A stretch of 46,980 bases of DNA, taken from assembly GCF_001425685.1 (NCBI RefSeq), contig NZ_LMCY01000003.1, positions 203,831 to 250,810 of the forward strand, read 5' to 3'. The translations under genes and the position numbers were made by a program. Source of the DNA: Massilia sp. Root335. Its GTDB lineage: Bacteria; Pseudomonadota; Gammaproteobacteria; Burkholderiales; Burkholderiaceae_D. Below, in pieces: positions 36,090 to 38,437 of this stretch. Under the pieces are notes generated by a model. That model made no database searches and had not been told where the DNA came from. It worked only from the letters and a program-made list of their open reading frames with translations. How positions within the stretch are numbered: position 1 is the first letter of the stretch; each line of letters begins with the position of its first letter.

Positions 36090-36141
36090 ACCGCCCCGGC
36101 CTCGCTGCGACCCTGCCCGCATGGCGCACTGTCGGCTGTCT

Positions 36142-36169
36142 TTACAACGCACATTTCCGATATTTGTAA
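36142..36169. promoter_or_regulatory. Inverted repeat TTACAA-N16-TTGTAA, candidate activator site
   Basis: TTACAA at 36142-36147 and TTGTAA at 36164-36169 form a 6-bp inverted repeat with a 16-base spacer. It lies about 30-55 bases upstream of the sigma-54 element at 36198. An enhancer-binding protein site would fit, although these usually lie somewhat farther upstream. Confidence 0.3.
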
Positions 36170-36197
36170 GACGCTGATTACATTCAGTTATCCAACA

Positions 36198-36213
36198 TGG
36201 TGTGAATCTTGCT
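36198..36213 (+). promoter_or_regulatory. Sigma-54-type promoter of the PEP-CTERM gene
   Basis: TGGTGTGAATCTTGCT fits the sigma-54 consensus TGGCACG-N4-TTGCW: the GG and GC pairs are exactly ten bases apart and TTGCT is complete. Transcription would start near 36224, giving a leader of about 57 bases before the ATG at 36281. Dependence of PEP-CTERM genes on RpoN with PrsK/PrsR has been described in Zoogloea-like floc formers. Confidence 0.65.
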
Positions 36214-36280
36214 CAATAATTAACCGCAGGACCGTACCAAGTCTTTGATTTCGCTCATACCAATAAATAGGGAGATCACT

Positions 36281-38437
36281 ATGTTTGGGAAACTCAGTCT
36301 TAGCGTCAGATGGCTGGGCGCGCTCGTCGTGCTCTTGTTCTCGCAGTGGGCCGCGGCCGGCCCCATCGCAATCGGTTATATGTCGTTCGACGTCACCTCG
36401 GGCACCACGGCCCAGTTCGACATCGCCAACCTCACCGGTCCCAACGCGCTCGCCCCGGACTTCCCGGTCGCCACGCCGCTCGCTTTCAACGCGCTGAACC
36501 TGCTCGTCACCTTCTCGGACGGCACCACCCACACGTTCGGCCTGTCCGACTTCACGCTCAGCGTGGACGGCATGTCGCTCGACGGTCCGACGGTCGCGAT
36601 CGGCGGGACGACGCTGCCCGTGGCGGCGACGCTGTCGGGGCTGGTCGGTCCGACCTCGATCGATCCCGGGACCGGCACCATGATGGACATCGACGCCGCC
36701 TTCAGCCCCGTGATGCTCGGCGACATCCACGGTCCGGCGCTGGACGACGGCGCGCTCGGCGTCATCTACGTCCACGAACCGGGCACCGTGACCGTGCCGG
36801 AACCGTCGTCGGCCTGGCTCATCCTGATCGGCGCCGCCGCGTTCGGCCTGCGCCGGCGCGCCCGCTCGGCCGCGCTGGTCGCCCTGCTCGCCGGCGCGGG
36901 CACCGCGTCGGCCGCGATTCCCGTCAAGCTCGCGGCCGCGTCGATTCCCAGCAGCGGCGTCGTCGGCGTGTCGTTCGTGAAGGTCACGGCGATGGGCCTG
37001 CCCGCCGTGGCGCCCGCCGGCGTGATGGTGACGATCGCCCCCACCTGCGCCGTCGGCGGCCCGGTGGCGGGCCAGGCGATCACGCCGGCGTCGTCCATCA
37101 TTCCCGTGATCGGCAGCACGTCCCAGGTCCGCTTCCAGATCCCGGCCGCGCTCAACCAGGGCACGTATTACGTCTCGCTGTCCGGCGGCAGCGGCGCCGG
37201 GGCGTTCGCCAGCACCAACTGCTCCGTGCTGAACGTGACGACGTCGAACACGACGCTCAACTCGTGCCTGCCGACCAGCTCACTGGCCGTCGCGCTCGGC
37301 CCGACGGTCACCGCCTACGTACCGAACGGCTGGTGGGGCGGCGGCGCGACCGGCATCCAGGTCGTACCGATCGAAGGCGCCGGCGCACCCACGTCGATTT
37401 CCACGGCCGGCATCGTGAATTCCTGCTCGTCCAACCCGAGCACCGGCCAGGCCGTGTGCACCGCCAACACGAACGACGTGTACCTGATCAACGGCCACAC
37501 GCTGACCAATACCCTGCTCAGCAGCGCCACCGGCAACGCGTTCTTCTCCGGCGGCGGCTGCCGCAATTGCGGCGTGGCCGTGAACGGCCTGACGAATACC
37601 GCCTACATCACGGTGGGCCTGTCCGACAGCGCGTCCGGCTCGGGCATCCAGGCGCTGAACCTGGCCACCAACGCGTTCGGCACGCCGCTGCGCCTGCGCC
37701 ACATCGTCTCCGAAAACATCTCGGTCGACGCCGGCCGCAACCTGCTGCTGACCCCGGGCGAGGACAACAGCTATGGCCTCGTGCGGCTCTCCAGCGCGGG
37801 CGACCTGCTGACGGAATTCGAGAACAGCACGATCGGCGGCGGCGGCGAATATGACTCGAGCGCATCGGACTGCACGACCGGCATCGCGCTCGCGTCGAAC
37901 GAGTTCACGTCGAACGTGTCGATGGCCGACTTGAACCAGGCCAGCTTCATACCCGGTTCCGGCAGCGGGATCGGCAGCTGGACGTCGCCGCACAACGTCG
38001 TGACGCTCGACGGCTCCTTCGCGGCCGGCATCTCCGGCATCTCGGTGGCGCCGGGCGGCCAGCACATGGGGATCCTGACCGGCGAGTTCGGCGGCCAGAG
38101 CTTCGCCGTGTTCCAGCTGCCGGCCACGCCGGCCACGGGCGGCACGGTCCCGGCCCTCGTCGACTACGCGGTCGTCAACACCCTGCCGAACACGCCGGAC
38201 GGCGCGTCCTTCACGGCCGGTTTCGACCCGCACACCATCACGGCCTACACGAGCCCCAACGACGGCCGCGCCTATGGCGTGATCGCCGACTGGGCGACCG
38301 GCACGCCGAGCTGGCTCGCCGTCATCGACCTCAAGAAGATCCAGGGCGCGCCCCGCATTGCGGGCACGCACACGGTCGATACATCGGTGTACGACGTCCT
38401 TGCCAGCGGCGCGGTCCGCTACGTCGCCGTGCACTGA
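36281..38437 (+). CDS. Exported two-part protein with an internal PEP-CTERM signal and a second signal-like segment
   Basis: A 718-residue protein. ATG 36281 has GGGAG about 7 bases upstream. Residues 1-26 are a signal peptide (LGALVVLLFSQWAAAG). Residues about 27-170 form a Gly/Thr-rich secreted domain. At 172-195 a complete PEP-CTERM tripartite signal appears: VPEPSS, a hydrophobic helix, and the basic end RRRAR. It is followed without a stop by ALVALLAGAGTASAA (199-212), a signal-peptide-like segment ending in a typical AxA site. The remaining 505 residues have repeated propeller-like strands and several cysteine pairs (CLPTSS, CRNC, DCTTG). In PEP-CTERM proteins the signal is normally at the extreme C-terminus, for exosortase. 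A sigma-54-type promoter precedes the gene. Confidence 0.85.
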   Translation: MFGKLSLSVRWLGALVVLLFSQWAAAGPIAIGYMSFDVTSGTTAQFDIANLTGPNALAPDFPVATPLAFNALNLLVTFSDGTTHTFGLSDFTLSVDGMSLDGPTVAIGGTTLPVAATLSGLVGPTSIDPGTGTMMDIDAAFSPVMLGDIHGPALDDGALGVIYVHEPGTVTVPEPSSAWLILIGAAAFGLRRRARSAALVALLAGAGTASAAIPVKLAAASIPSSGVVGVSFVKVTAMGLPAVAPAGVMVTIAPTCAVGGPVAGQAITPASSIIPVIGSTSQVRFQIPAALNQGTYYVSLSGGSGAGAFASTNCSVLNVTTSNTTLNSCLPTSSLAVALGPTVTAYVPNGWWGGGATGIQVVPIEGAGAPTSISTAGIVNSCSSNPSTGQAVCTANTNDVYLINGHTLTNTLLSSATGNAFFSGGGCRNCGVAVNGLTNTAYITVGLSDSASGSGIQALNLATNAFGTPLRLRHIVSENISVDAGRNLLLTPGEDNSYGLVRLSSAGDLLTEFENSTIGGGGEYDSSASDCTTGIALASNEFTSNVSMADLNQASFIPGSGSGIGSWTSPHNVVTLDGSFAAGISGISVAPGGQHMGILTGEFGGQSFAVFQLPATPATGGTVPALVDYAVVNTLPNTPDGASFTAGFDPHTITAYTSPNDGRAYGVIADWATGTPSWLAVIDLKKIQGAPRIAGTHTVDTSVYDVLASGAVRYVAVH

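Follow-up and report, generated by a model that had tools for sequence, protein, structure and literature searches.

The window, a 46,980-nucleotide stretch of DNA from Massilia sp. Root335, contains an open reading frame (ORF) at 36281..38437 that encodes 718 amino acids without any internal stop. Full-length homologues exist for the whole ORF, which has the make-up of a tandem-signal, polyprotein-like gene. This ORF and all its features given below are on the + strand. A GGGAG resembling a ribosome-binding site (36270..36274, by eye) lies 6 bases 5' of the ATG, and a promoter scan returned no sigma-70 sites. Residues 1-26 (36281..36358), ending in WAAA, resemble a signal peptide by eye and are taken as putative signal peptide 1. 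An N-terminal beta-rich domain follows (residues 27-169, 36359..36787), delimited from an AF2 model and from stand-alone N proteins, and leads into an internal PEP-CTERM signal (residues 171-195, 36791..36865) made of VPEP, a hydrophobic helix and RRRAR. Directly behind it comes a second signal-peptide-like segment (residues 196-211, 36866..36913) with predicted cleavage after TASA (A211), at an A-x-A whose position is conserved among family members and stand-alone C proteins alike. The remainder consists of a first C-terminal beta sub-domain (residues 212-328, 36914..37264), seen in the AF2 model and lacking any Pfam family over cut-off, and a beta-propeller-like domain (residues 329-718, 37265..38434). 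Two hydrophobic segments thereby flank a basic loop in the middle of the ORF. This is the layout drawn by the first-pass annotation: VPEPSS occupies residues 172-177, the hydrophobic stretch 178-190, RRRAR 191-195 and ALVALLAGAGTASAA 198-212; the signal peptide and C-terminal domain of about 500 residues that it had also described correspond to the signal-like N-terminus and a C part of 507 residues.

The AF2 model of the 718-residue protein, built on a 63-row alignment, has a mean pLDDT of 87.6. Confidence is high for the beta-rich N domain at about 27-168 (with a block above 90 for 31-160) and for the C-terminal part, and low in the linker, where segments 169-176 and 189-209 fall below 50. 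In Foldseek the C-terminal part matches propellers of the WD40/YncE type (1gxr, 7seu, 7kqq; TM by target 0.64-0.69); the folds are similar, but sequence identity is low (11-14%) and a shared function is not implied. The top match of the whole model, 6zqa, was set aside for its poor TM. A phmmer search of the window protein against the PDB found no match at E <= 1, and Pfam and NCBIfam scans reported nothing besides PEP-CTERM over cut-off. Eight cysteines of the C domain are invariant in the 63-row alignment, which would fit an exported domain.

The internal PEP-CTERM signal scores over the curated cut-offs, which cover PEP motif, helix and basic cluster, with both PF07589 (residues 171-193; 23.1 bits, cut-off 20.7) and TIGR02595 (residues 172-194; 22.9 bits, cut-off 16). 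It does not lie near the C-terminus: about 525 residues follow it. Passages of Haft et al. 2006 (PMC1569441) describe PEP-CTERM near the extreme C-terminus, with fewer than 10 residues after it in 87% of cases, and suggest that long-tailed examples may be non-functional; passages of PMC12188702 and PMC9850573 also present the signal as C-terminal, with processing described as thought or possible. The source genome has 43 TIGR02595 matches over cut-off, and 41 of them end at most 31 residues from the stop (39 of these at most 15), the two longer-tailed terminal cases having 29 residues, in a stretch with masked letters, and 31. Only two of the 43 are internal, the other one being followed by 355 residues in an unrelated protein. 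Within the window protein's own family (alignment A1, 63 rows), every row has P175, and P173 and E174 are each kept in 90% of rows or more, a pattern unlike that of a decaying signal. Some internal signals of the family do appear weak or variant (e.g. VPLP, VPVP), since TIGR02595 at E <= 0.01 on whole proteins matches only 30 of the 63 members and the helix after PEP passes the hydropathy threshold in 97 of 116 rows.

Behind the PEP-CTERM signal, SAALVALLAGAGTASA forms a short hydrophobic run ending in A-x-A (A209-S-A211), and A211 lies 12 positions before the C-domain landmark P223. Landmark counts use 116 of 118 rows (P0004 and P0051 lack the regex landmark; P0023 was anchored on a wrong P-x-P), and among these 116 rows with both landmarks the loop has a net charge of at least +2 in 114, the second segment is hydrophobic in 115 and A-x-A is present in 97. 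The triplet lies 9-13 residues before the landmark in 85 of the 118 fused proteins, the window's own included, and is missing from that distance in 33; 1000 shuffles of the 118 averaged 33.1 and never exceeded 47. A looser small-residue rule holds for 113 of 118, the shuffle control covering strict A-x-A only, and the region is alanine-rich, so that same-window shuffles yield A-x-A anywhere in 66.9%. Stand-alone C proteins have A-x-A at the same 9-13 distance in 39 of 56, a subset of 116 chosen for Met and landmark. The uncharged run to the site has a median of 19 in both sets, with quartiles of 5.5-23 in fused against 16-21 in C-only proteins. The family thus combines an internal signal-like segment with an A-x-A at fixed distance, as expected of a polyprotein cleaved by signal peptidase. 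For codons 199-213, comparison of the window ORF with M. rhizosphaerae gives 6 nonsynonymous and 0 synonymous changed codons, which are small numbers; NG86 dN and dS are both about 0.33 there, compared with a dN of about 0.06 and a dS of 0.16-0.34 in the domains, and 0.09 and 0.11 in signal peptide 1. Judged from these alignments, the second segment drifts in sequence and retains its pattern, in the manner of a signal peptide.

The fused arrangement is conserved well beyond the source genome. A protein search returned 441 matches, and among the 120 listed, 117 are at least 640 aa long and have the PEP-CTERM motif internally, mostly near residue 160-200. Sources named among the listed homologues include Massilia luteola, Burkholderiales GJ-E10, Edaphobacter, Terracidiphilus, Acidobacteriaceae, Candidatus Acidoferrum and a Stellaceae MAG. 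P0002, a record named Massilia luteola (97% identity), has an intact junction, as does Massilia rhizosphaerae (L003; 88% identity, full length). The gene is single-copy in the source genome, and one of 148 other genomes has a match, full length at 88% identity, with an ORF identical to that of Massilia rhizosphaerae. The same species was the only relative found on genome contigs, where no Acidobacterial DNA with split genes turned up; viral contigs yielded no relative, and plasmids only a Streptomyces C-domain homologue. That homologue, from an actinomycete (Streptomyces sp. NBC_01276 plasmid, NZ_CP108443.1:260223-261248), is a propeller part by itself and aligns with 48% of the query at 39% identity. 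C-domain searches recovered 1 of 398 genomes across the phylum (the source genome itself) and 2 of 399 across the order (the source genome and G677), so the family looks rare in Pseudomonadota. The first-pass annotation had asked whether the junction is conserved, holding that homologues uniformly stopping after RRRAR would speak against its polyprotein reading; the junction is in fact kept in M. rhizosphaerae, in P0002 and in more than 100 more distant proteins. Its suggestion of a sequencing error does not survive the homologues with an intact junction, including those at 88% and 97% identity; together with low dN/dS in both halves, intact fused homologues lead us to reject both such an error and a recent stop loss.

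Both halves also occur as separate proteins with their own signals, the outcome of the separate searches that the same annotation had proposed. The N-domain search found 18 short proteins, several of which end in a terminal PEP-CTERM (e.g. P0123), the others being cut off or without one. A search with C-domain residues 329-718, with full-length proteins out of range, gave 406 matches; many of the stand-alone C proteins among the 120 listed are about 520 aa long and start with Met and a signal-like leader. To place the two forms on a tree, 63 of the 118 fused proteins were combined with C-only ones under a strict choice: 52 candidates were hand-picked from the C-domain matches (contig >=5 kb) and 4 then dropped, leaving 48. 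The resulting quick tree has 6 state changes, at least 3 of them forced by starred branches; a wider one, with 201 proteins from a looser set, has 11, 9 of them forced. Both trees have SH-aLRT as their only support, and gains and losses of the fusion are not told apart because the root was not inferred. One C-only clade (P0185, P0186, P0219, P0226, P0239) sits inside a starred clade of otherwise fused proteins. Two N/C pairs come from contigs of equal size, P0126/P0239 (27,872) and P0133/P0196 (4,220); as the case for neighbourhood derives from this match in size, it is suggestive that N and C halves lie adjacent in the window's own family. P0133 and P0196 overlap by 12 codons in another frame (at most 8 in 20 shuffles) and may be a frameshifted fused gene, for which reason they are not counted as a native split. 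The idea that two adjacent genes had fused holds in part: for an old event that happened repeatedly, not for an accident.

The gene and its 190-bp leader (36090..38437) are missing from the syntenic site in the 4 relatives examined. The flanks adjoin in 3 of the 4 (1-37 nt apart; 36089 to 38438 in L149), and the fourth, L151, has 907 nt of other sequence between them and no trace of the gene. Such a pattern of presence and absence would be expected if the gene had been acquired already fused, or if it had been lost elsewhere. The 36090-38437 block lies between a putative sodium/proton-antiporter-like gene, recognised by eye, and the next gene.

The same junction was found in two unrelated families. 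The second internal PEP-CTERM of the source genome belongs to a tandem HAF-repeat protein (TIGR02913; G000:C32:142910-145087, - strand; L007/L020) with the order signal, HAF domain, VPEP...RRRRARS, LAALGCGLILAAPAALA, HAF domain and terminal LPEP. A HAF search gave some match in 52 of 101 genomes, and fused HAF frames in which a signal-like segment comes after an internal PEP-CTERM occur in 14 of these and in L127 and L128, two genomes of another genus of the family; as only selected loci were fetched, this count of 16 is a lower bound. A terminal PEP-CTERM is also present in 9 of the 16 fused HAF proteins read and absent in 7. A relative of the HAF second half stands alone in G052 and G056 (79-80% identity), where the Met leader ends (ADPLYTATFLPENF or AAPLYTATFLPENF) at the same sequence point as the internal LADPLYTATFLPDNF. 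HAF genes in G053, G047 and G007, considered as split partners, were rejected: they form a separate tandem, but in reversed order, with the C-half-like gene first.

A junction profile run on 116 genomes of the family matched 70, mostly as partial matches to ordinary PEP-CTERM tails. It further pointed to L129:667-1713 (+) and L130:996-1976 (-), where one frame joins a choice-of-anchor-J domain, PEP-CTERM, a signal-like segment and NF047450 (post-PEP-CTERM-1). The internal PEP-CTERM exceeds the TIGR02595 cut-off in all five fused HAF and choice-of-anchor-J proteins scanned. NF047450 itself, searched in 79 genomes, has 15 loci in 11 genomes, none of them fused. Thirteen of the 15 are frames of their own, 101-321 nt 3' of the stop of a PEP-CTERM gene, and the separate frames begin by eye with Met and a hydrophobic leader; no PEP-CTERM neighbour was found for the other two. 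With 13 of 15 loci as neighbours, the pair of PEP-CTERM gene and secreted-partner gene is the common state for NF047450 and fusion the exception. One such locus is in the source genome (G000:C69:86565-86997, - strand; L134 and L050), where about 100 nt separate the frame from the stop codon of the PEP-CTERM gene before it; the two are likely a partner pair.

Exosortase (PF09721) has two matches in the source genome (249.9 and 227.6 bits) and occurs in all 18 other genomes examined that have one of the three junctions; since the comparison covered junction-bearing genomes, this establishes that exosortase is available, not that the two are associated. The stronger match (G000:C32:62580-66323, L004) lies within a 920-codon open frame, possibly a fused or multi-domain exosortase, the model itself having 254 positions.

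Taken together, these observations make it probable that the ORF product is an exported polyprotein, with signal peptidase I (SPase I) freeing the C domain and exosortase sorting the N domain. We infer the topology and both cuts from sequence, as follows. Sec would export the N domain; the PEP helix would stop transfer and the RRRAR loop would stay inside; the second segment would re-initiate transfer and the C domain would go out. SPase I would cut after A211 during export, releasing the propeller-like part and leaving the N part with a PEP-CTERM and a hairpin tail, and exosortase would then process this N part by a cut at VPEP. The arrangement would have the advantage of a fixed 1:1 delivery of two partners, one sorted or anchored and one released. 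The first-pass annotation had offered such a polyprotein next to a fusion by stop loss or a sequencing error, and the conserved junction and the separate halves with their own signals favour the former.

The reading closest to this one is an uncut membrane hairpin, a two-helix anchor that would hold both domains, still one membrane protein, at the outer side of the inner membrane. Its topology is identical up to cleavage, and the basic loop of 114 of 116 rows as well as the 33 of 118 proteins without A-x-A at 9-13 would suit it; we nevertheless consider it unlikely, given that A-x-A holds the same distance as in stand-alone signal peptides, that the uncharged run has the same median of 19 in both sets, though fused proteins vary more, and that each half has its own signal in the separate forms. 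Somewhat less probable still is a course in which SPase frees the C domain while the internal PEP-CTERM is no exosortase substrate, so that the N domain stays in the inner membrane. The remark on long-tailed cases in Haft et al. 2006 (PMC1569441) and the TIGR02595 matches in 30 of 63 members point that way, against which stand the invariant or nearly invariant PEP of the 63 aligned members and the five HAF and choice-of-anchor-J fusions over cut-off.

Two further explanations seem very improbable. Separate versions of the halves exist, and P0133/P0196 look like overlapping frames (perhaps of a frameshifted fused gene), as might be expected if the window gene had arisen by accidental stop loss, assembly error or a neutral fusion without function; yet another species retains the gene intact at 88% identity, dN/dS being low in both halves, long fused proteins make up 117 of the 120 listed matches, and the junction recurs in three unrelated families. 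Production of two proteins from an internal start, instead of by cutting, draws on a linker Met in 34 of 118 fused proteins and on in-frame CTGs at codons 182, 190, 199 and 202. From codon 172 to codon 230 of the window ORF, however, ATG, GTG and TTG are all absent in frame and there are only CTGs, hence no common start codon just 5' of the second signal segment, and the GTGs at codons 170 and 172 have no obvious ribosome-binding site upstream by eye.

Returning to the polyprotein, we lean, with less assurance, towards a recurrent class comprising at least three unrelated families, in which the gene of a PEP-CTERM protein fuses in frame with that of a secreted partner next to it, both signals are kept back to back, and exosortase and SPase I would split the chain so that one product is sorted and the other released, in a fixed 1:1 ratio. 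The window protein shares with the PEP-CTERM/exosortase system (PF07589, TIGR02595, PF09721) an N-terminus that by eye resembles a signal peptide, VPEP with helix and basic cluster, and an exosortase in the genome, but its PEP-CTERM is internal: about 525 residues come after it, and so does a second export-like signal. The tandem HAF-repeat proteins, one of them from the same genome, likewise have an internal PEP-CTERM with a signal-like segment behind it, whereas their domains are unrelated and 9 of 16 also end in a terminal PEP-CTERM. NF047450 is a curated domain named for following PEP-CTERM, and L129 and L130 have it behind the same junction; it is absent from the window protein (no match at E <= 1) and is a separate downstream gene at 13 of 15 loci. 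The name post-PEP-CTERM-1 implies that NCBI curators had already noticed something after PEP-CTERM; among the open-licence papers searched we found none with 'post-PEP-CTERM' and none with both 'PEP-CTERM' and 'polyprotein'. Polyproteins with internal signals exist in bacteria: in the cytochrome b/c1 polyprotein FbcH of Bradyrhizobium, signal peptidase cuts the precursor at a signal inside the chain. FbcH shares with the proposed scheme a bacterial precursor and an internal-signal cut, but is not known to involve PEP-CTERM or exosortase, and the proteins are unrelated.

Long-tailed PEP-CTERM cases were earlier set aside; here an internal PEP-CTERM is conserved in more than 100 proteins together with a second export-like signal. 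If processed, these chains would be natural polyproteins of bacteria, matured by two membrane proteases, and exosortase would accept internal signals, contrary to the published description. The family would then offer a clean test of what exosortase needs C-terminal of its site. PEP-CTERM substrates are mostly without known function, and the junctions name candidate partners for some of them: the N domain with the propeller, and PEP-CTERM proteins with post-PEP-CTERM-1.
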